From positions 1-11,380 of the forward strand of contig PEWW01000132.1 of NCBI GenBank assembly GCA_002779345.1: a stretch of DNA of 11,380 nt, written 5' to 3'. Both the position numbers and the translations under genes were made by a program. Shown in pieces: positions 1 to 11,380 of this stretch (position 1 is the first letter of the stretch; every line of letters begins with the position of its first letter). This DNA comes from Candidatus Omnitrophica bacterium CG07_land_8_20_14_0_80_50_8. GTDB taxonomy: Bacteria; Omnitrophota; Gorgyraeia; 2-02-FULL-51-18. The notes under the pieces were generated by a model, which saw only the letters and a program-made list of their open reading frames with translations, made no database searches and was not told the DNA's origin.

Positions 1-3000
1 ATGGAAGGGAAAAAGGCGAAGAACTGGTCGACTACACTCAAAATTACCAAGCCGACGGCCTGACGGTCCGCAATACCTCCATTTCTTACTATGAGAGTCC
101 GGCGGGTCTTCTGGTTTTTCCGGTCAGAGCCACGGTCGCAGGATTTGAGCCCGGCTTAAGAGAGACCGACCAATTTCGTCATGGAACCTCCGGTTCCGAT
201 ATGGTGAACGGCCTCAAGCTGCAGAGTCAAACCTTCTTTGCGGGTTCTTCAAAGGAGGAGAAAGTCGACTACGTTCTAAACTACAAAGGGGCCGCCGGAG
301 CCGAAAAGGTCGGTTCTACGCAAATATCTTTTTATGGCAGCGACAATTTCCGTGCTACGAACGTCAATATCTCACCCGACGACGCCTTAAGGACCCAGCG
401 TACCTTTAAGAACGCATTCGCGAACGCGACTTTGGTGTTGGTTGATGTTCTAAGCTGTTATGCCAGCAATAAACTCATAAGCGAATCCTTTTTCGCTGGC
501 GATATGTCCGAGGAAAAGAACGACTACACTCTGAATTATAAAGGAGATGTCGGAGCCGAAACGGTTCGTTCCACACAGATATCTTTCTATGGCAATACCA
601 ACCTTCGAGCCAAGGACCCTCTTATTTCACCTGACGATGCTTTGAAAATGCAAAGGACTTTCAGAGATGGTTTTACGAATGTGGCTTCGGTAACTGACTC
701 AGGTCGTTATACAGCTAATAAACTTCTCACGGAATCTTTCTTCGCCGGCGAGGTCACTGAGGAGAAAAATGACTATACCATAAACTACAAAGGGGACGCC
801 GGATCCGAAACATTCCGTTCTACGCAAATTAATTTTTATGGTACATCCATGAAACGTGCTTCCGACCAGTGGTTTGTATTGGAAGGAGGTGTTTCGGTCC
901 TAAAGACGGTTGATTTTGACGAGCGGTTGACCCGCCAGATCCTCTGGAGGGACGAGGTATCTCAGACGGAACGGGACAGCCTGTTGTTCGGGGGCGTGAA
1001 TATGGCTTTGCCTCTTAACCGGATGGCGATCAACCCGAATGAGCCGGCGGACTGGACCGATATTCAGATCAATATTTCCAAAAAAGTGTTGAACGAAACT
1101 TACTACGTCGGTGAATTCGGCGAAGAAAAGGTCGATTACCTGTTTAATTACGCGGGCTCCGCGCTTGACCAAAAAGTGCAGAATACACAGATCTCGTTCT
1201 ACGGTAACGCGGGCCTGCGAGCATCGAATCCGGCCACTGACGTTGACGATCCTTTGGCCCGGCAGACGACCTGGAGAAGCTATGTGAACGATACGGACCG
1301 TGCCCAGATCATTACCCAAAATTCCAGAATTCCGATCACCACCGGAGCGTTGGCGGATGGCAGTTCGATGAATATTAACGGGGTCACTGTCAATATGGCC
1401 TATTCAGCGGCGACCAGCCAGGCGACATTGCAGATAGGCGGTGTAACCAAGGTTGTTGATGTCGGCAGCAGCCTCGTACCGGCAGGTAAAGGATCTCTCC
1501 TTCTATCGCTAGACGCATCGGGGGTCTTGCAGGTAACGTCCGTCAGCCAAAACAGGCTTTTATCCACTAATTATTTTGCCGGGTATGTCGGCGAAGAAAA
1601 ATCGGATTATGTGGTTTCTTACACCGGAGCGGCAGGGTTTGAACGGATCAAGACGACCCAGATGAGTTTTTACGGACCGGAAGGACGCCGGGCCAATGCG
1701 GTGTGGATGCCGTTCGGCTTCACGGAGTTCAGAATGATCGATTCGGACGACGCATTGGTACGCCAGATCGTGTGGAAGGGAGGCCTCGTCGCCGCCGAAC
1801 TTGAACAGCTGAGAAATATTCCTTTAATGGGCACCGTACCGGCGCCGTTCGATCTAACGGCATTGGATCCCGCCATTCAGGCGGTTGTAGGGAAGAAAGT
1901 GATCTCCGAAAGCGTCTACTATGGCGTCTCGGGAGAGGAAAAGCTTGATCACACTTTCAATTACCGCGGGGAATATGGATTTCAGGATGTTCAGAGCACA
2001 CAAATGTCCTTTTATGGAGATCAGGCTCGCCGTGCCTCGTTTGTCGGAGTGGACGATCCGATGGCCCGTCAGATCACCTGGAGGGGCAAGCTTGACAGCG
2101 GGGCCCTGACTTCTCTGAATTCGTATTCAATTGCAACGGTCATCGGAAACCTGGCCAGCGTGGGGAACACTTTCTATCTGGCAACGGACAGCCATTTTGC
2201 CGGAGAGGACGTGGGCGAGGAGAGGTTGGACTACACAGCGTCTTACGAGGTCAAGGGAATCGATATCCGGGATATTTCCGTCAATTTGTACGGCGTCGTT
2301 CACGAGCGCGCGACCAGCCCGGTGCTTGATCCGGATGACGCGCTGACCGTCACACGCTCTTATAAAGAATCTAATGCTTACGATTTATTGGTAAGTTCCA
2401 CGGCCTATCCATCCACCGGCTATGCGGCGGCGGAGCCCCTAAAAAATTGCCAGAGTGAAAACTATTTTGTCGGGTACCGCGGCGAAGAGATCTCGGACTA
2501 TACACAGCGTTATAACAAAATGCAGGAGGCGGTCAGCTTCACCGTAAATTATTACGAGAACGCTTTGATCGCCGGTGATACCGCATGGCGCGCTGCCGAC
2601 GCGGTGTCCGGAGATCCTCTCAGGAAGACCATTGAAGTGAGCGGCCAGTACAATCCGATGTTCAGCGAAAATGATTATCGCTCTAAGTCTATCTATTTGG
2701 GCGAGCAAGGTGAGGAGTATGTCAGCCAGGTCTACAGCTACAAACGTGGAGAGATCCAATCAAGGAGCGAATACCAATACGTTGAACACTCCGATCACCG
2801 CAAGATCGACACGATCACGCAATATGACGTTCTCAGAAGGGCGGATAAGGACAACGACCGTCTTCTTAAATCGGGACAAACCAAGTATTTCTATACCAGC
2901 GCTTATGATCCGGATTTTGCCGATACGACGATCGCCAGAAACTGGAATTATCATCGGGATGATCCGAACGTCCTAAGCAGTTTTTCCGTTACCAAAAACA

Positions 3001-6000
3001 ATTTTATCGATAACGGGGTCATGGATTTTCATACAGCCGGGAAAGAACCTATTACCACGGGCTTTAATTTCTATCACGGAATATTCGGGTCCGTGAGTCC
3101 GTTGATCGACCCGGATCCCTCGCTAAACGATCCGGCCGTCTACGAGACAGCAATTTACAATCCTATCAGTGTTTCCGACGCCAAGATCGCCAGTTATTAT
3201 CAGACGCGATCGTTCACGGATGATGCGCCGACACTTCTGTCTGCGCAACGTTGGGGACGCGTGGATCACACGGTATCGAAAGGCACAAGCTTCTCCAAGG
3301 GCGAGAGCCAAGCTTATTTCCTGATGAGCCAGACTGACAAAACAAAAGTGACGGGTAGTTATGAGACCACCTCACGCTTCAATATGAGCGATAAATTGGA
3401 TAGCCAGGAAACGGTAGGCGTTTCTTACGGTTTAAGTAAGAATCTGGCAGTGGATTACAAGGTGACCGGCCGGTACAGGACCAAAGCCACTTTGATAGAT
3501 AAAGATTGGGGAGATGTGCTCGAGTCAGAAACAAGAGGGATCACGGAAAAATACAGCTCGACGAACGGCACGCCTGATCCGAAGGTTTCCAGCGCTTACC
3601 GCACCACTACCCAGTTTAACAAGTATGGCTTCTCGGAAAAGAGCACCAATGAATCTTACTCGTTCAGAAACGGCGCGCTAAATCCGATGGCGATCGATTC
3701 TACCAGCGCTATTGACCCCAATATGCCGATCCCGCCCCCTATCGTTGCGCCGACGTCGCTTATTTTTAATATGATCGGGGATTTCCCGGCTGTCTGGAAC
3801 GTGACCGACCTGGCTTCCGGCGAAATGAGAGGCCATTCTTCCACGACCACTGAGTTTGACGAGTTCGGAATAGAAAAATCCTCGAAATCGTCCGGTGATT
3901 CATGGAAATTCGGAAAACGCATGGGCGATTCCCAAACTGAGACCAGCTATGAAGGCAACGCTTGGGGCGAACAAAAATGGAGCCGTATCACGGGAAATAA
4001 CTACAAGTATACCGGCGACAAATACGAAAGCTATGAGATGCTCACTAATTTCGAGAACGGACTTACCAAGGATAGCCACACGGACACTACTTCTTTATTC
4101 GGCGAAACGCTGAGTTCTCATACCGACACGTATTATGACACGGACGGATATATCGATTGGTCGAATGCCGTCTATAAAACGCTCGAGAGGGAATACGCGA
4201 CCGAAACGCATTACAGCCAGGACCGTTACAGTGATTATCTCGAAGACAAGGTGATCGAATATACGATCTCGGACAATAGTGACGACGGTATTTTCACCGG
4301 TCAAAATGACAAAGGAGGCCCGGCACGCGTCAGGACGGACTATATTTACGACAAATTTGACATGAATCTCGCGGCTGCTCCGGGGGTTTCTTTCCGGTCG
4401 GCACTGCTGTTCACCTATTCTAATGATTATGCCAATACGATAACCGTCTATGAGCAGGACAAAGAGTTTAACGATGATCCGGAAGAGAGGCAGATCAAAT
4501 ACACGAAGTCAGACATGGATGAGGAAGATTATAAATACGGAGATTGGCTGAACGGTGACCGCCCCGCCTGGCCGACCGCTCCCGCGGGATTTAACCCCGA
4601 CAATATCACGTATACTGCTTACAATTCAGGTTCAGGATTACCGATCGATCCCGACACCTTTAATCCGGCATATCGTCCGCAGGTCAAAACGGACTATTCA
4701 TGGACATACGTCAACCCGACGGCGCCGGCCACTTTCAGGGGACCGCGGATCCTTGATTATACCCAGTCCCGTGACTCCCGGCTCACATATACGAAATACA
4801 GAAAAGATCCGTTTGCGGCGGGAGGCGAGGACACTGTGATCGACTATACGGAGTCAAATAATTCTCCCGATGATATAGGAGTCGGCGGGCCCTATAGGGT
4901 CAGGACCAAGCAGTACTGGTCATCGATCCAGGTCCAGGGCCGCCCGGTCACCGTGCTGGAACATACCGAGGCGAACGATTCAAAAAATACAAGGACCTAT
5001 TACAAACAGGATCCGAACAACACCAGTTTCAGGAAGCGTGTGATGGATTATGTCGAATCCAAGAATACTCTCCGCGATCAGGCCGCCGGTGGTCCCGCCG
5101 TTCTTCGGACGACATACAACTGGATCGGCGTCAACGAGTCCATTTGGACAAAACCCACTCTCATAGACCAGTCGGTCAAGAAAGACAGGCTTGCGACTGT
5201 CCTGGATTCGACTTTATCCAACGACTCGCTTCATTCTTTTGTGAAATACAGGGACGACGAGTACAGCACCAGCCGGGTGAAACAGCGCGTGATCGATTAC
5301 CGGACGGATGACATGGGTGAATACCAGATCTACCACTATCAAGAGGCCGGTTTCAGCGATGTGCCTCGGGGAGTGGTAAAGACCGTTGAATCAAGGAAGG
5401 GATCGCTGACGGGGCGTTTGCTCAAGATATCCGAATACGAAACCAAGGAACCAAAGACATTTGACCCGGCGTCTCCCATAGAAAATCCGCTATGGCCCTC
5501 GCCCAAGCTGATGACCGTGACAAGCTTCAAGATGGACGGCGCTGCCATCTCCTCGGTCCAAAAATATTATTATGATTTGCCCACCGATGATCCTTTGAAT
5601 TTTGATTTTAACAACGACACCACGGCGGACGTGGCTGATCTGGATACGGACAAGGACGAGAGTTTGACAATCGCACAGATAGAAACCGAGCTGCAGAATG
5701 TCCTTTCGCCGGACGATTATACGGCCGCTCAAGCCAACACGACTTTATGGACCCGGCTGACCATGAAATACGGGGACATCAAACGGCAAGATCTGGACTA
5801 CACGATCGCCTATGACGCGTATGGGATCAAGAAATCCGTCAGCATCTACTCCGGCAACCAAGGGGAAGAGAAACAGATCGGGACGGTCAATTTTGCGAGA
5901 GACGGGAGAAAGACCGGCGTTTCCATGACTCAATACAAGACGGACGGATTCACCCAGGATAAAGTTTACTCGTACAAGATCTTTGACGACGGCGATAAGT

Positions 6001-9000
6001 GGGACAAGACGGAACTCACATCACTCACCGAATACACAGGAAAAGCCGGAAAAGAGAACATTAAAACGGTCACGAATTTCAGAAAACAAAAGAACGGTGA
6101 AATTATGCCCAACGGGCAGAAGCCATGGACCTCATTGGCGGTTCCGTTGACTTACGAACAATTTGTTGGCAAATGGAGTCTGTCGCTCAGCCATTATCAA
6201 TACCGCACCTACAAGGTATCGCCTGATGACCCGTACAGTCCGGAATTGCAGGCGATAGAAAAGGTGGAACAAACGGCAATGGTATTGAATGGAGCTACCG
6301 GGACGTACGAAGAGGTTTTGAGATCAACAACTTCGTATGATGGGGAGCGCGGGGAAGAACAGATCCAAAAGATGACCCAATACCGGCTGGATGGCACCAC
6401 AGTAGATTCGATAGACCACTACACTTACGAGACAGGCCGTACCCGGGCGCTTCTTAAGGTGGACCGTTATCTTCCTGTAAAATCAGGCACGGTTACATCC
6501 GGTATGACGGACGGTGAGGTCGCGGCGTTGACCTATATATCGCAGAGAACGGAGTATGGGGACGTCTACGGAAAAGACCCGGTCCAGGGCGACGAAATGG
6601 CCAAGCGCATTCTGCACTATTATTCGGACGGGTCGATAGCGAACGTGGCCAATCAGCTTTACAAGGCACAGGATCCGACCAACCCGACTGATTTTAACGT
6701 CCGCAAAGAAGGATTTGTGCTATGGAGGGTCGATACGCTGAAAGGAACCGCGGCGGATTCGGGCACTTTGTCCCGCGCGCAATATTTCGGCAAGGAAGGC
6801 AATGAAAGACTGGATTATGTCGAAAATTATACCGACGAAACAAGGCAGATCTATGGCTACGTAAGTCCGGACCTGGCCGTCGCTTATACAGAAGATGCAG
6901 CCTCCGCCCGGCTTTACTCACAGGCTATCGATGCAGACACGGCATCCACGAATTTAGAAAGAAACAATTTGAAGGACGATGCGGCGATCAAGAAAGTATT
7001 CTTGGTTCGCCGGGATGTTGTATGGCCCAATACCGCCGCGGGAATGAACCCTGTTGTCAGGGAAACCGAGTATGCAGGCCAAAGAGACGAGGAGAAGATT
7101 TTCAGCGTCGCCAACTACGAAATTGACGGTTCTTACGCTGATAAGGACTATTACTATTACCACAATCAACGCGACACGACCGTGATGCCTGCCGGCTATC
7201 CGGATCTCGATAATTTTGCCGCGTTAGACTACACGGAAAAATGGATTTACTACGACGGATCAACGACTCGCGACTTGAGGGTACAGGTGACCTATTTTAC
7301 CGGCGAACCCGGAAGGGAAAAGACCGCATATATTAATTTCTTTAAACCCAGCCCTACGGATATCGCCGGAATGTCGACAACCATTAAGAGCGTGGCGACC
7401 TACGAATACGATCCCAATTCGAACGCGCTCCGAAAAGTCGTCAACACGGTCGGGACCACCAACGTGGTCTCAAGCGTGAGCGAATACGAGGGCCCCGAGG
7501 GCAACGAGAAAATGGTGCGGGTTCGCCGGTACCGTCTTGAGTCTGAGTCTGCGCAGATCAGCGAATATGACGCGATGCAGAAGTTCCTGACGGATGTCAA
7601 CGGCGACGGCGTGGTCAACGAGGCGGATTATCAGCTGGTCAAGACAAGCGTCGAGCAGTGGACCAAGGCGACCAATATGCAGGACCTCAACGGGGACGGC
7701 ACTTACGATTACACGGATCTCCAGCTTCTCGAAAGCTTCATAAAGGCGCTTGAAGTCGTGGGCGGGGATACCGCTGACTTTGAAGCCACACTGATAGACG
7801 GCTCAGGCAACTATATTTTCGATTTTAACGCGGACGGGACGGTTACCGACCAAGAAGTCCAGATGATGAAGGCCTTTGTTGAAAACCTGGCCGATACTGA
7901 TCTTAACGGGGAGATCAACGGTTCGGATATCGACATGATCAAAAACGTCATGAATTTTATGCGCAATTATGATTCCGACAGCGATGGGTTCAGCGATTAT
8001 GAAGAAACAAGGCTCGGGACGGATCCTCTCAATTATACGGACCAACCCAACAGCTCTGCGGTGACAAACGCAAATCTCAAGAACGCATTGGAACACCTGA
8101 TGACGACTGTCGGTTTCAATGCGACCTTTGCGGAGGGACCGGTATGGTCCGGCGGACTTAAGATTTACGGGAATGAGTCGACCATCCGCGTGATCGAAAG
8201 CGAGGACGGCTCGGTTGAAGTGATATGGCCGAGCTCCCTGGGCGGCGGCGTGCGCTCGATCTCTAGGAGCGAATTGGCGAAAGTTTCAGTGGCCGAAAGC
8301 GGGGCCGGACCCGGATCCGGTTTTGGAGCAGGAACGCCTTTATCAGCGGATCTGGTCAGACAGGTCACGGATCTGGTCGCGGCGGTGGATTTCAACATAG
8401 CAGACGCCTATCTGACGGTCGGCACCACCGTCTTTAATTTTTTCAAAAAGGTCTACGATATTTATCAAGAGTCGCTCGCTGATGAGCCGGTCCGTCAGGA
8501 TCTGAGGGATCTGGTGCCCTATTATCAACCGATCATCTTGGCCCTCAGTTCGACCAATCCGTACCTTCTGACGCAGGAGGGCCTCGGCCAGCTGGGTGAA
8601 TGGATCGGGACTCAAGGGCCCCTCATCATTAACTGCGCGGCAAAGGCACTTTCGAGCCTTTTGGGCTCTCGCGGCATATCCGCCGGTTACGGCAATATCG
8701 CTTCCTCGGCGATCATCTACGATATCTTGTCCGGTGTGATCAATTCGTCAACCCAGGGTGGAGTTCAGACTTCTTTGGATGCCATTACAGCTTTGGCCTC
8801 TCAGAAGGGCGTGAACCTGAAGGGGCTCGAAATGTCAGCCGCCGATCTCTCCCGCCTCAAAGGGCCGTTTTTTGCTCTCGTTTCGAAGAATGGGGCGGAT
8901 CACCTGGTCCTGGTCAAATCGTTCACGGACACGGAAATAAGGTATGAGTCCAACGGGGAATTGATAACAGCCGGTAAGGATGAGTTTAGCGCCATCTATA

Positions 9001-11380
9001 AGGGCAGCGTGCTGATCCCTGCCACGGTTTTTGACGACTTGGTGGGAACGGGCATCATCACGAATCGCGAACTTCCGGATGGGTCGAAGATCACCATGGT
9101 CCGGAACGCGAACGGGGAACTGCAAAATATCATGATCCGTTTGTCGCCGAACGCCACCAAGACCGGCATTATGAGTATTTTGCTCAACGAGGCCTTTGCC
9201 GACAAAACGGCGTTTGAGACGGTCATCGAGGAGCTCAAACGGGCTCTGGATAGCGTGACCTCCCAATCCGCCAAAGACTCTCTGGGCGCGCAAATAAGCG
9301 ATTGTCAGACGCAAAAGTCGAAACTGGACAATTTTATACGCACACTCAACGTGATGCTCGCAAGAACCGAGGCATTGGAGACCAGCGCGGTAGATCCCCG
9401 GGACGCTTCTCTGATTTCGGAAGACATCGATATGACCGGCGCGGCTGTTTCCGCCTATACGACGGATTTTATCAACAAAAATGCCCGTGAGCTCAGCGAA
9501 CTCTTGAAAGCGGTCATCCGGGACAAGAATACGGTGGAGAAGGATCTGGCCAAACTGAGCCGTCTTCTGATCCAATCGGATCCGGATATGAAAGCGGCGC
9601 TTGAAAGCCGCATTCAATCAGCTAGAAATGTCTACGGACAGATCGCCTATTTGGTCACGGCGGTGAGCGACTCACTCCGCGCGATCAAAGACAGTGATTT
9701 TGACGGCTATAGTGATCAGGAGGAAATGGTTCTCGGCGCCACCCAGGCGTATCGGACGAATCCATTTGATTATGACGACCGTTCCGGCGTCTCCAAAGAT
9801 TCGGATAATGACGGCTATTCAGACTCGCTCGAGTCGTTCAAAGGCACCAATCCCAAAGATACAGCGGACAAGCCGGATAGCAGCAAGGTCGATTTCGATA
9901 ATGACGGCGAAAGTGATTCCATGGAGACCGCCAACGGAACGGATCCCAAGAGCAAGAAATCTAACTCTAAGATCGATACGGACCGCGACGGAATATCGGA
10001 TTTCGCGGAGGCAAAACTTGGAACTTCATCCGAGAAACCGGATTCAGACGGTGACGGCTTCTCCGACGGGGAAGAACGTGAAAGGGAGACGGACCCGCTG
10101 AATATATCCTCCCGTCCGGCCCCGAGCGAGACCGACGCCGACGGCGACGGCACCAGCGATAAGAACGAAAAATTACTCGGAACGGATCCGGAGAAGGCGG
10201 ATTCGGACGGCGACGGCTTCTCAGACACCGAGGAGCTCAAACGCGCGACGGATCCTCTCGACAGCTTGTCCAGCCCGCTTCACCATGAGTTCTTGCTGAA
10301 TTCCGTGATGATCGGAAAGCTGGACCTCGACAGAAATGGCAAGATCGATCTGAACGATGTTTTTAGTTTTGACCGGATGTTCCAGGGATTCGCAGATCTC
10401 AACGGCGATAGCACGCTGAGCGAAAAGGATCTCACGGAGCTTGAGCGCCTTATCCGCTTCGCGAATTTGAAAGTCAGCGCTCAGGACATGGAAAACGCCG
10501 ATATCAATAAAGACGGCAAGATCGATATCCAGGACAAGATCGATTTCATCAACGGTCTCAAGAACTACCAGGACGTTAATAATGATGGTGTGGTGGATTA
10601 CCGCGATCTTGAATTTGTCCAAAACCTCGTGGGGTTGGGCATCAGCGGCGAGGAAGCCCAACACGCCGATATGAATTCGGACGGCATTATCGATTTCAAG
10701 GATTATTCGATCTTAGAATCGGTGCTTGGTTTCTTGAGAGACATCAATCAGGACAATCAACCCCAGCTCTTCGCTTCCGGAATGAATGCCGCGTTTATCG
10801 GCGGCGGTTTCGCGCTCGTCACCGTCGGTGCCGGAGATGAGATCGAGATCGCGCCCGTGTCGACAGCTGCCGTCAGGGAGATCAGTCAGATCGCGGTGAC
10901 GGTCAACCAAGCTTCCGTTCTACTGGAAAACTTTGACGTCGCAACACTCGAAGCGACCGTAAAGATAGGGGATGGATCCGCGGTGTACTCGAAGGGAATT
11001 CACCTTGTTCGGGTTGGAAGCGGGTACGCGTATCTCATGGTTCAGGCGGATGGAAAAGTGAAGATCTCGGAGGTCACTGTTTCAGGCACCGATCTACTCA
11101 GCGACACGCCGATCAGTGTTTACCAGACTGAGGTGACGCTTGTGAGCTTTGATCCCGGGAAGAACGAAGCGACCGTTCAGATCGGATCTGACGTCCGTGT
11201 TTTTGCGGCCGGTGTTCATACGGTGAGGATCGGCAGCGGATACGCCGTATTAAGGGTCGATGAGGACGGGCAGACGTCCCTGACGCCGGTCACGACGGAG
11301 TCAGGTCAAAGGTTAGGAACCTATCGGGTCCATGACACACCTGTTTCTGTGATGTCCGCCGGGGACGACCGGGTCATTTT
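1..11380 (+). CDS. Internal fragment of a giant modular repeat protein, partial at both ends
   Basis: One frame, with codons starting at position 3, stays open through all 3,792 complete codons and runs off both window edges. I translated it line by line and met no stop and no frameshift. Domain order: G-E-E-K-x-D-Y beta repeats (residues 1-915), beta-rich Tyr/Thr/Ser sequence (916-1415), I-D-Y-T-E-S repeats (1416-1800), a second G-x-E-K repeat block (1949-2510), dockerin-like and TSP3-like calcium loops (2531-2680), peptidase C39-like domain (about 2850-3007), helical region (3051-3229), seven TSP3 repeats (3230-3420), dockerin-like loops (3441-3585) and beta modules (3586-3792). Only four cysteines were seen (152, 816, 2878, 3101), and no transmembrane segment or signal peptide; any signal peptide would lie upstream. 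Calcium-loop domains of this kind act outside the cytoplasm, so a secreted or surface role is inferred. I recognise no named gene. The overall design resembles giant proteins of Omnitrophota, but this is an inference. Confidence 0.96.
228..2745 (+). repeat. N-terminal G-E-E-K-x-D-Y beta repeat array, eight clear units plus one degenerate
   Basis: Unit heads start near 228, 483, 732, 1095, 1566, 1908, 2187 and 2454, with a weaker ninth at 2688; a further head is cut by the window start (G-E-E-L-V-D-Y, bases 15-35). Each unit reads about E-S-F-F-A-G-x-x-G/T-E-E-K-x-D-Y-x-x-N-Y-x-G, then T-Q-x-S-F-Y-G, then R-A, then D-D-x-L/M-x-R-Q-x-x-W/F. Spacing between heads is 76 to 157 residues. The core of about 55-60 residues is conserved and the link after the Trp/Phe varies. 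Alternating hydrophobic and polar residues and many Tyr and Gly suggest beta strands, like RHS/YD-type shells, but the classical YD-repeat consensus is absent. I do not recognise the family. A structural stalk or shell is inferred. Confidence 0.9.
1380..1544 (+). repeat. Beta module inserted in the N-terminal repeat array
   Basis: Residues 460-514 sit in the long link between the repeat heads at 1095 and 1566, which makes this the longest unit (157 residues). They align with one single-residue gap to the C-terminal beta module at 11133-11291. The shared pattern is V-T then A-T-x-Q-I-G, then V, G, V, G-x-G, L, D-x-x-G and T-x-V; after the gap I count 10 identities in 35 positions. This is a domain of about 55 residues with unknown function, probably a small beta fold, used both as an insertion and as a tandem repeat in the same protein. 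Confidence 0.6.
2746..4247 (+). other. Beta-rich Tyr/Thr/Ser region without a clear unit
   Basis: Residues 916-1415 show short alternating patterns such as T-T-x-F-x-x-x-G-x-x-x-x-S and S-x-T-x-x-Y, with many Tyr, Thr, Ser and Asp and few long hydrophobic runs. The period is short and degenerate, and I could not fix a consensus. A proline-rich linker (M-P-I-P-P-P-I-V-A-P, residues 1241-1250, bases 3723-3752) separates two halves and may be a hinge. The likely structure is continued beta strands of the RHS-like or stalk type. No catalytic motif is recognised. Confidence 0.6.
4248..5400 (+). repeat. I-D-Y-T-E-S-N-x-S repeats
   Basis: A second repeat type reads V/I/L-I/L/M-D/E-Y-T/V-x-S-x-N/D-S. 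It occurs near residues 1417 (V-I-E-Y-T-I-S-D-N-S), 1583 (I-L-D-Y-T-Q-S-R-D-S), 1612 (V-I-D-Y-T-E-S-N-N-S), 1651 (V-L-E-H-T-E-A-N-D-S), 1680 (V-M-D-Y-V-E-S-K-N-T), 1733 (V-L-D-S-T-L-S-N-D-S) and 1763 (V-I-D-Y-R). Three copies are followed by G-G-P-x-x-x-R-T-x-Y or close to it (residues 1438, 1628 and 1696). Spacing is about 29 to 55 residues apart from one wide gap. This is probably another beta-strand repeat of the same stalk; no function can be assigned. Confidence 0.75.
5401..5846 (+). other. Link region with one EF-hand-like calcium loop
   Basis: Residues 1801-1948 join the I-D-Y-T-E-S repeats to the second G-x-E-K block. Within them, residues 1868-1897 (bases 5604-5693) are Asp/Asn-rich: D-F-N-N-D-T-T-A-D, then D-T-D-K-D-E-S-L-T-I-A-Q. 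The second stretch fits an EF-hand or dockerin loop at ligand positions 1, 3 and 5 (Asp1881, Asp1883, Asp1885), but position 12 is Gln1892 rather than Asp or Glu. It looks like a small calcium-loop insertion between the strands K-Y-Y-Y-D-L-P and L-D-Y-T-I-A-Y. It may be weakened or no longer bind metal. Confidence 0.5.
5847..7560 (+). repeat. Second block of degenerate G-x-E-K repeats
   Basis: The head motif of the N-terminal array returns in a looser form at bases 5847 (Y-S-G-N-Q-G-E-E-K), 6033 (Y-T-G-K-A-G-K-E-N), 6336 (Y-D-G-E-R-G-E-E-Q), 6783 (Y-F-G-K-E-G-N-E-R-L-D-Y), 7071 (Y-A-G-Q-R-D-E-E-K), 7293 (Y-F-T-G-E-P-G-R-E-K) and 7485 (Y-E-G-P-E-G-N-E-K). Heads are 62 to 149 residues apart. 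The T-Q-x-S-F-Y-G half of the unit is mostly lost or replaced by Y-Y-x-D or T-x-Y strands. The shared head suggests common descent with the units at 228-2745, with more divergence. Function unknown, probably structural. Confidence 0.75.
7593..7928 (+). repeat. Dockerin/EF-hand-like calcium loops, first cluster of four
   Basis: Four 12-residue loops have Asp at position 1, Asp or Asn at 3 and 5, and Asp or Glu at 12: residues 2531-2542 (D-V-N-G-D-G-V-V-N-E-A-D), 2561-2572 (D-L-N-G-D-G-T-Y-D-Y-T-D), 2607-2618 (D-F-N-A-D-G-T-V-T-D-Q-E) and 2631-2642 (D-T-D-L-N-G-E-I-N-G-S-D). The fourth has Asn-Gly at 5-6 instead of Asp-Gly. Each is followed by a short amphipathic helix (for example L-Q-L-L-E-S-F-I), as in dockerin type I repeats. 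The loops are expected to bind calcium. A scaffold-binding role like that of cellulosome dockerins is possible, but the internal position argues for a structural joint. Confidence 0.88.
7971..8042 (+). repeat. Single bacterial TSP3-like repeat
   Basis: Residues 2657-2680 read D-S-D-S-D-G-F-S-D-Y-E-E followed by L-G-T-D-P-L. This is the bacterial thrombospondin type 3 consensus (D-x-D-x-D-G-x-S-D-x-x-E, then G-T-D-P). It begins 26 residues after the fourth dockerin-like loop and ends the first calcium-binding block. The same motif is used seven times at 9690-10260. It is expected to bind calcium and form a stiff link to the domain that follows. Confidence 0.88.
8124..8282 (+). other. Small beta segment before the C39-like domain
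   Basis: Residues 2708-2760 alternate strands and turns, including G-L-K-I-Y-G-N, I-R-V-I-E-S-E-D-G and S-V-E-V-I-W-P. The order resembles the middle of the C-terminal beta modules (G-x-H-x-V-R-x-G, then x-V-x-x-D-G), but needs at least one gap, so relatedness is only suggested. A Gly-rich stretch (residues 2768-2778) follows and looks like a flexible linker to the helical part. Confidence 0.35.
8340..8580 (+). other. Helical segment leading into the C39-like domain
   Basis: Residues 2780-2860 are mostly amphipathic helix-type sequence, for example L-V-R-Q-V-T-D-L-V-A-A-V and V-F-N-F-F-K-K-V-Y-D-I-Y. It breaks with the beta-rich sequence upstream. It lies directly before the Cys-containing helix of the C39-like domain and may be a prodomain-like or packing region. 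No family recognised. Confidence 0.5.
8550..9021 (+). other. Peptidase C39-like (papain-fold) domain
   Basis: Residues about 2850-3007 follow the order of C39-like cysteine peptidase domains. The candidate nucleophile is Cys2878 in N-C-A-A-K-A-L-S-S-L-L, at the start of a helix, with Gln2871 seven residues before it as a possible oxyanion-hole residue (six is usual in papain-fold enzymes). A helical part with L-D-A-I-T-A-L-A-S-Q-K-G leads to the typical L-S-R-L-K-G-P-F-F-A-L-V strand. His2967 lies in G-A-D-H-L-V-L-V, where the catalytic His is expected. The usual third Asp position falls near Glu2982-Ser-Asn-Gly, so Asp appears replaced. The ending D-E-F-S-A-I-Y-K-G-S-V-L-I-P matches the family's closing helix and strand. 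Members cleave leader peptides (C39 of ABC exporters) or act as stand-alone peptidases; activity here is unproven. It could be self-processing or a non-catalytic binding domain. Confidence 0.72.
9030..9152 (+). other. Short beta link after the C39-like domain
   Basis: Residues 3010-3050 read as a few short strands with a turn of the type N-R-E-L-P-D-G-S-K-I and R-N-A-N-G-E-L-Q-N-I. They join the C39-like domain to the following helical region. This may be a small beta hairpin; nothing more can be said. Confidence 0.4.
9153..9689 (+). other. Helical, probable coiled-coil region
   Basis: Residues 3051-3229 are rich in Leu, Ala, Lys, Glu, Ser and Asp with heptad-like spacing, for example V-I-E-E-L-K-R-A-L-D-S-V and V-E-K-D-L-A-K-L-S-R-L-L. 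There are few Gly or Pro residues apart from one break near 3128-3145. It is the longest helical stretch in the window and separates the C39-like domain from the second calcium block. It may act as a spacer or an oligomerisation helix bundle. Cys3101 lies inside it. Confidence 0.65.
9690..10260 (+). repeat. Array of seven bacterial TSP3-like calcium repeats
   Basis: Seven copies of D-x-D-x-D-G-x-S-D-x-x-E start at residues 3230, 3266, 3297, 3325, 3347, 3378 and 3400 (bases 9690, 9798, 9891, 9975, 10041, 10134 and 10200). Several end in G-T-D-P or T-D-P-L. Steps of 22, 28, 31 or 36 residues reflect short and long linkers. The fifth and seventh copies share nearly the same DNA over D-S-D-G-D-G-F-S-D. 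The array is strongly acidic and expected to bind many calcium ions and become a rigid rod outside the cell. It has the same repeat type as 7971-8042. Confidence 0.93.
10323..10760 (+). repeat. Dockerin/EF-hand-like loops, second cluster: five complete plus one truncated
   Basis: Complete 12-residue loops run over residues 3441-3452, 3465-3476, 3500-3511, 3524-3535 and 3556-3567, all with Asp at 1 and 12 and Asp or Asn at 3. The first has Asn at 5 (shifted N-G, as in D-L-D-R-N-G-K-I-D-L-N-D). Starts are 24, 35, 24 and 32 residues apart, so the loops come in pairs with a 24-residue step, as in dockerin type I. A sixth loop would be due at 3580 and begins there (D-I-N-Q-D-N-Q), but stops after about seven residues and passes into the beta module. 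Calcium binding is expected; partner binding is unknown. Confidence 0.9.
10758..10901 (+). repeat. Beta module, incomplete first copy
   Basis: Residues 3589-3619 align without gaps to residues 3733-3763 of the last copy (10 identities in 31 positions). The shared pattern is F-A-x-G, then I-G-x-G-F/Y-A, V and P-V. The first half of the module (the E-A-T-V-x-I-G strand) is missing, because the dockerin-like loop runs straight into it. This is the third, degenerate copy of the tandem that follows. Confidence 0.6.
10911..11126 (+). repeat. Beta module, second copy
   Basis: Residues 3637-3708 carry E-A-T-V-K-I-G, then G-I-H-L-V-R-V-G-S-G-Y-A, then A-D-G-K and D-T-P-I-S-V. Over a 42-residue core it matches the next copy at 21 positions without gaps. 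The fold is probably all-beta and of unknown family. The conserved H-x-V-R-x-G-S-G-Y-A is the hallmark. Confidence 0.8.
11127..11380 (+). repeat. Beta module, third copy, running to the window edge
   Basis: Residues 3709-3792 repeat the module: E-A-T-V-Q-I-G, G-V-H-T-V-R-I-G-S-G-Y-A, E-D-G-Q and D-T-P-V-S-V. The strong match to the copy before it indicates a recent tandem duplication compared with the N-terminal insertion at 1380-1544. The frame is still open at the last base, so more copies may follow. Confidence 0.8.

Follow-up and report, generated by a model that had tools for sequence, protein, structure and literature searches.

A window open from end to end is probably an inner piece of one giant Omnitrophota gene broken over six contigs

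How far does a gene extend when the DNA at hand shows neither of its ends? The question is raised by the window analyzed here, a stretch of 11,380 nucleotides that comprises bases 1–11380 of an 11,834-base contig (C152) in a metagenome-assembled Omnitrophota genome (1.04 Mb, 195 contigs, 74% complete). On the plus strand, frame 3–11378 contained 3,792 complete codons and no stops, where ~177 would be expected from base composition (ln P of none = –181). The remaining five frames held 69 to 202 stops each, and GC content by codon position followed a single pattern throughout the open frame. These results confirm what a sequence-only reading of the window had noticed about its openness. That reading also described the frame as having neither start nor stop; no stop is in fact present, but in-frame start codons are, the first ATG, GTG, or TTG being an ATG at 201 with no stop upstream. 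Moreover, contrary to its expectation that such a frame would be missed, gene callers that accept incomplete genes at contig edges would pick it up. An antisense open frame of 260 codons (8835–9617, minus strand), in a minus frame with 69 stops, lies over the peptidase region described below and is probably a codon-usage shadow.

In our reading, the window is probably an inner piece of one giant Omnitrophota gene, broken in this assembly over six contigs that together carry 15,534 codons. From the 5′ end, the pieces would run in the order C163, C152 (the window), C185, C160, C192, and C162. The window would then be about an eighth or less of the gene, and the product would be a Sec-exported, cysteine-poor, acidic cell-surface protein, probably of more than 30,000 residues.

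Might the open frame instead be an accident of assembly? The contig ends 454 bases past the window, with 38 Ns (11,381–11,418) followed by 416 bases of 34% GC that encode, on the minus strand, the start of a family-2 glycosyltransferase (PF00535, E 4.5e-15). Because this glycosyltransferase is cut after ~80 domain residues and its remainder is too long for a 38-base gap, either the two parts were joined wrongly or the gap was given the wrong size, and the scaffold join at 11,381 is likely a misjoin. The sequence-only reading had asked whether extension of the contig would show the frame ending just outside the window. Formally it does, as the first stop lies at 11,436–11,438, but this stop sits beyond the Ns in unrelated-looking DNA; we rejected it as the gene's end, and its location in the glycosyltransferase piece means that it provides no evidence for the true 3′ end. 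A wrong join is what speaks for a chimeric assembly, but the suspect one lies outside the window, inside which frame and codon pattern are unbroken and residues 1839–3584 align in one piece to a protein from another family. That the window is chimeric, or its open frame a matter of chance, is therefore extremely unlikely.

The features of the window are as follows (residue numbers refer to the translated frame).

3..11378, plus strand: internal stretch of a giant reading frame, without true start or stop (3,792 codons)
3..2702, plus strand (residues 1–900): repeats of ~80–110 residues (...FAG..GEE..DYT.NY.G....V.ST.ISFYG...RA...), with self-matches of up to 69% identity
3003..5492, plus strand (residues 1001–1830): second, more diverged tyrosine-rich repeat block, with self-matches over most of 1101–1800
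5517..7562, plus strand (residues 1839–2520): conserved block, collinear with a counterpart in genome G153 and, from residue 2104, also with one in G031
7581..7982, plus strand (residues 2527–2660): first dockerin-type calcium-loop block, with loop motifs at 2531, 2561, 2607, and 2657
8550..9017, plus strand (residues 2850–3005): C39-like cysteine-peptidase domain (PF03412 and alignment A1)
8634..8636, plus strand: Cys2878, presumed nucleophile (alignment A1; the whole frame has only four cysteines)
8901..8903, plus strand: His2967, presumed catalytic histidine (invariant in 19 rows of alignment A2)
8952..8954, plus strand: Asn2984, candidate third catalytic residue, assigned by eye (Asp in G153)
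9108..9647, plus strand (residues 3036–3215): charged linker, helical-looking by eye, collinear in G153
9654..10277, plus strand (residues 3218–3425): TSP3-type calcium-loop array (TSP3_bac E 1.8e-27, five stretches; loop motifs)
10290..10754, plus strand (residues 3430–3584): second dockerin-type block (Dockerin_1 E 6.1e-18, best stretch 3522–3572)
10767..11378, plus strand: ~72-residue repeats (G.H.VR.GSGYA.L.V..DG), with self-matches; repeats of the same kind begin C185

Repeats and calcium-loop modules had been said to cover nearly all of the window, which proved an overstatement. When the frame was searched against itself as fragments (E ≤ 1e-3), internal repeats accounted for 66% of residues, most strongly in 1–900, and its 14 D-x-D/N-x-D-G loops occur only between residues 2531 and 3556. 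Tandem Repeats Finder (score 50, periods up to 500) detected no array in the window DNA. In Pfam searches with the whole frame, the paired calcium loops of type I dockerins were recognized by Dockerin_1 in four stretches, of which the scan located the best one, and TSP3_bac matched as listed above. A whole-frame query of a large protein database, with scoring confined to the 2,072 candidates that had the most words in common with it, gave two weak matches with TSP3 among their domains. No transmembrane segments were found in the window by hydropathy. The repeats of residues 1–900 also occur in three genomes of the same family (G006, G007, G008) and in further class members, and another relative (G189) matches residues 1–1406. 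Within the window's own genome, the first dockerin-type block matches C192 and C185, and the C-terminal end of the window matches positions 6715–7098 of C185, at the N-terminal end of that piece.

Loaded with calcium, the dockerin and TSP3 loops would be expected to make the chain rigid, so that it forms a long stalk or a coat. Dockerins usually take the form of single C-terminal tags. With Dockerin_1 matches also present in C185, C192, and C160, one could picture a cellulosome-like scaffold, in which an enzyme complex is assembled outside the cell through dockerin–cohesin binding; the dockerins here, however, form tandem arrays within one chain rather than single C-terminal tags, and we regard such a scaffold as very unlikely.

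The peptidase-like domain lies between the calcium-loop blocks. PF03412, the C39 family, scored 19.7 bits in the whole frame and 25.5 bits as an isolated domain (cut-off 22), and 19 of 21 aligned members matched at E ≤ 0.1. The window's match spans profile positions 45–129 of 133, which is the histidine half; since it begins at position 45, the cysteine half is placed by alignment A1 only. By reading, the 21 C39-like segments of the class in A1 fall into two types, nine with cysteine (NCA or SCG) and 12 with the motif HFGxSA, in which serine replaces the cysteine; the window's domain is of the cysteine type. The best matches in a PDB profile search with the C39 alignment were peptidase domains of bacteriocin exporters (including 4ry2 and 7n87), again over the histidine half. 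The window resembles these exporters in that profile match and in a conserved cysteine ~90 residues before the histidine, but it shows no ABC-transporter fusion in the frame seen, and its domain is embedded in a giant repeat protein. The C-terminal third of the window matches 14 of 39 genomes (E ≤ 0.001, its own included), mostly via the C39 region. Once exported, the domain may cleave the giant protein itself or a partner.

The HFGxSA sister type (L069–L094) occurs in several closed frames of ~4,000 residues, and a search of named genomes with its alignment returned 27 loci, all Omnitrophota, Omnitrophica, or Omnitrophus. In 600-base comparisons, eight pairs of named loci and loci from the window's relatives proved identical; they represent five genomes of its own family (G003, G004, G005, G010, G011) and one of its order (G014), which supports placing the window's genome in Omnitrophota. 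One such locus (L089) contains RHS repeats and an ILEI domain, with a hydrolase-like C-terminus by eye.

A protease within a repeat protein could also belong to a giant polymorphic toxin of the RHS/YD type, in which the repeats form a shell and the C39 domain frees a C-terminal effector. Pointing that way are the RHS repeats beside a sister-type domain in L089, the sole locus scanned, and matches of the C39 profile to a DUF4150 protein (E 4e-4) and to contact-dependent inhibition proteins (E 0.02–0.03). Yet Pfam found no RHS_repeat match in the window, the C39 domain stands mid-frame and is followed by long calcium-loop arrays and no toxin domain, and the sister copies, by reading, carry serine at the cysteine position. 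We thus consider a toxin decidedly improbable.

Multiple comparisons bear on the preferred reading, one giant gene. First, a genome of the same class (G031) contains a contig, C9, whose 135,114 bases, free of Ns, read as a single frame of 45,037 codons with no stop, truncated at either contig edge. Near its start, dockerin, C39, TSP3, and dockerin-array domains follow one another in the order seen in the window. This frame (L062–L068) ends in near-identical repeats.

Second, four further contigs of the window's genome (C185, C192, C162, and C160) are open from end to end without Ns, and together with C152 they chain on the G031 frame, between residues 2014 and 31366, in the order C152, C185, C160, C192, C162. 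Residues 2104–3597 of C152 chain to 2014–4682 of G031; 429–2371 of C185 to 4590–6534, in a single 592-bit alignment of 1,943 residues on 1,945; 202–1824 of C160 to 20843–22235; 137–2153 of C192 to 22463–26351, with 927–2153 unbroken (1,227 residues on 1,227); and 10–2251 of C162 to 27543–31366, the weakest placement of the five. The unbroken C185 alignment and C192 927–2153 are the strongest single items. C162 (L060), which is wholly open, carries a DUF4214 match and a second C39 domain of the cysteine type, which counts, like its weak placement, against the single-gene reading. Hydropathy gave no segments in C192 or C162, two borderline ones in C185, and 15 in G031.

Third, chain scores on G031 for C152, C185, C160, C192, and C162 were 340, 592, 411, 442, and 132 bits, compared with 64, 57, 0, 0, and 0 on the reversed sequence and 227, 409, 162, 288, and 0 on one block-shuffled copy. 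The shuffled scores of C152, C185, and C192, at 65–69% of the true ones, count against a single gene; they stay sizeable owing to the repetition of modules. Also counting against it, identity of the pieces to G031 is only 20–44%, in matches whose numbers are inflated by repeats, and the last link of C152 overlaps the start of C185 on G031 by ~90 residues. With these points weighed, the six pieces would, on our reading of the sequences, form one gene.

An alternative is that the pieces come from several separate adhesin-like genes of 3,000–12,000 residues each that share modules, the window's own gene having perhaps 5,000–12,000. C39 frames closed at both ends and ~4,000–4,400 residues long do exist (L074, L080, L082, L088, L089, L092), and in the window's family a frame of G007 that is open at its 5′ end stops after 11,094 codons. 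A further contig of the window's genome, C99, likewise open from end to end, with 28 Ns inside, was rejected as a piece of the giant gene: its chain on G031 scored 113 bits versus 97 on the shuffled copy, and it more plausibly belongs to a separate RHS/ILEI/C39 protein of ~4.2 kaa, the frame of which is closed at both ends in another genome (G005). Its ILEI-to-C39 spacing of 965 residues, versus 1,014 in that protein, fits separate genes as well. Against these observations stand five stretches of the window's genome, 45 kb in total, without a gene boundary, the agreement of their order with a single G031 frame, and the presence in the genome of one copy of the N-terminal domain considered below. 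We judge separate genes to be unlikely, and one giant gene remains our preferred reading.

Fourth, two further genomes hold counterparts. In G153, which belongs to another family, a single alignment covers window residues 1839–3584 (28% identity, E 6e-172), including the dockerin, C39, and TSP3 modules, and the cysteine and histidine positions of the C39 domain are kept. In G093, an N-terminus at 36,302 is followed by seven successive plus-strand frames, all but one pair overlapping, up to a stop at 118,336, after which shorter ORFs occur. If the shifts are sequencing errors, this gene spans 82,035 bases or ~27,345 codons; its last frame has 21,903 codons, with a C39 match and calcium loops. 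The division into seven frames implies assembly indels or a broken gene there, which weakens the comparison. The first 16 kb (G093:C10:36296-52653; L164, L174) are split among six consecutive frames, a pattern that indel errors or decay would produce. Together, the G031, G153, and G093 counterparts support the interpretation, offered from the letters alone, of an Omnitrophota-type giant gene that combines repeats with a peptidase-like module.

The 11,094-codon frame of G007 (C93) has window-type repeats near its open 5′ end and a C39 match before its stop. The lengths in G093 and G007 differ, and so giant-gene length varies; for the window's gene, the G031 positions suggest a full protein of more than 30,000 residues. 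When the C-terminal 3,000 residues of the G007 protein were used to query the window's genome, no match emerged, and a search with the G007 stretch expected to bridge C163 and C152 matched only C163; both outcomes count against the single-gene reading. The C-terminal part of the G007 frame (L112) contains, by eye, a Walker-A-like PAGGGKT and a DEAE motif, giving it the look of a SecA or helicase motor; it had no Pfam match at E ≤ 0.001.

Where does the gene begin? A signal-peptide-like N-terminus heads frames on contigs of six relatives (G006, G113, G189, G199, G028, and G014), five of which run off the contig end and one of which (G199) meets an N gap; all except G199 have window-type repeats in the same frame. 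A profile of these six sequences (A5) found one copy of the domain in the window's genome at E ≤ 1e-5, on C163, where a frame of 524 codons, from its first methionine to the contig edge, runs off the end of the contig. By eye, this N-terminus has a basic stretch, a hydrophobic core, and an FAA end, and it would work as a signal peptide; in G093, hydropathy places a segment at residues 12–34 of the N-terminus. C163 likely carries the 5′ end of the window's gene, as far as can be judged from sequence, although its part has a GC content of 0.44 versus 0.52 and G031, whose contig is cut at both ends, has no match to A5; the first point counts against the joining of C163 and the second against a single gene. 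Window residues 5–79 have a match in G006 at frame residues 790–857, and a helical insertion is seen in C163 and G007. Allowing for this insertion, we estimate that the window would start at about residue 800–1,200 of the giant protein; from the G006 and G007 registers, the distance across the C163–C152 junction would be about 0.8–2 kb.

Across 384 genomes of the class, A5 matched 96 at E ≤ 1e-5, many of them weakly and over the signal-peptide region only, and 46 at E < 1e-30 by hand count. In a phylum sample of 384 genomes, with its out-of-class share unstated, 44 matched at E ≤ 1e-10, all from the same family, order, or class as the window's genome or that genome itself. In the part of an earlier survey drawn on here (PMC10066038), giant ORFs had been recorded in only one of five genomes of a class called 2-02-FULL-51-18, a name that matches a record of the window's family (RIFCSPHIGHO2_02_FULL_51_18) and so probably denotes the same lineage. 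The earlier description of such genes as reported in Omnitrophota stands, but within the window's class they are perhaps not rare.

The DNA upstream of the start is also informative. On C163 (L152), genes for a membrane-fusion-type adaptor (MFP) and two RND permeases (RND1, RND2) precede the giant gene on the same strand, with 395 bases between RND2 and the giant gene, and NCBIfam labels them as RND permeases and an RND adaptor; in the three cases measured, the spacer was 152, 278, and 395 bases long. Our headline count rests on the 30 loci listed as matches in the A5 search. Sixteen of them carry an RND2 homologue no more than 1.5 kb upstream of the conserved start, and no such gene occurs within that interval in the remaining 14, one of which has only 499 bases of upstream DNA. 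The usual gene row, where it was examined further, is OMF, MFP, RND1, RND2. In a 25-locus set, chosen partly by us, the RND pair is directly upstream in 14 loci from five families, 12 of them with adaptor and TolC-like genes as well. Of these 25 giant frames, 19 are still open where their contig stops and six meet a stop codon; of the six, at least three (G010, G093, G155) continue in another frame and two (G199, G080) meet Ns. In G007, RND2 and the N-terminus share a separate contig. As a control, neither RND protein had a match at E ≤ 1e-8 around the 27 Omnitrophota sister-C39 loci (365,425 bases, of which ~5 kb were counted twice where two loci overlap). Given the 14 loci without RND2 and the absence of the link in G093, where the whole gene is on one contig, the association is common and not universal. 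We found no report of an RND operon at Omnitrophota giant-gene starts in the literature searched, which leaves out the main giant-gene preprint.

The upstream row of OMF, MFP, and two RND genes recalls the MdtABC–TolC pump, but here a giant gene follows and the scores are far below the equivalog cut-offs. The C163 RND pair reached 366 and 407 bits for MdtC (cut-off 1774) and 324 and 395 bits for MdtB (cut-off 1584); with RND_permease_2 the scores were 595 and 638 bits (cut-off 1250). The adaptor scored 162.5 bits against a cut-off of 94.9, and the TolC-like protein of G006 89.5 against 225. The pump genes would be co-expressed with the giant gene and may share in its export or assembly, the pump exporting either the giant protein itself or something that it needs. 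A bolder proposal is that OMF, MFP, the two permeases, and the giant gene work together as a single system, in which a tripartite RND machine picks up a Sec-exported giant polypeptide in the periplasm and displays it on the surface, much as in type-1 secretion with a proton-driven RND pair replacing the ABC motor; we hold this to be a long shot.

RTX giant adhesins such as LapA and SiiE, secreted by type 1 systems, are calcium-binding giant surface proteins with adaptor and TolC-like genes nearby. The loci described here would share those traits, but an RND pair takes the place of the ABC protein, the N-terminus is signal-peptide-like, and the RTX motif GGxGxD does not occur in C152, C185, C192, C162, C99, C160, or G031.

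Giant ORFs have been reported in Omnitrophota before (PMC10066038, PMC12057145, PMC11573180), including a 39,678-residue protein of Ca. Velamenicoccus archaeovorus (Seymour et al., 2023, PMC10066038), and the gene as such is thus a further member of a known group. Membership is taken as a single ORF of >20 kb, with multiple transmembrane helices usual and not required of each member; the window's genome is from this phylum, and its frame, cut by contig ends, measures 11.4 kb. In the portions of Seymour et al. (2023) drawn on here, the published giants resemble the window's gene in phylum, size class, and scarcity of annotated domains, with dockerin in one; they differ in having many transmembrane helices, compared with none by hydropathy in the window, and neither a C39 domain nor an RND operon at the start is mentioned for them there (PMC10066038). 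Giant genes encoding up to ~85,800 residues, similar in size and lineage, have also been described (West-Roberts et al., 2023, bioRxiv 10.1101/2023.11.21.568195, as cited in PMC12057145). The published giants are thought, in the same portions of that source, to be extracellular and to serve attachment or predation, and proposals for V. archaeovorus and other Omnitrophota include a contact role (PMC10066038); by analogy, the protein encoded here would help its cell to attach to others or attack them. To the puzzle of how so small a bacterium produces, exports, and retains a protein tens of thousands of residues long, the conserved N-terminus, often behind a pump operon, offers a handle by which gene starts can be recognized, and it makes the export route testable.

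Finally, this handle indicates how such genes come to be overlooked. Among the 30 listed loci, 12 lie on contigs of ≥20 kb, and in 11 of these the assembly ends ≤10 kb downstream of the start, compared with 1.94 expected; over all 30, the excess of contig ends gave a Fisher p of 3e-4. As contig ends cluster behind the start, the gene probably goes unnoticed in the lineage's fragmented genomes, scattered in unrelated-looking pieces.
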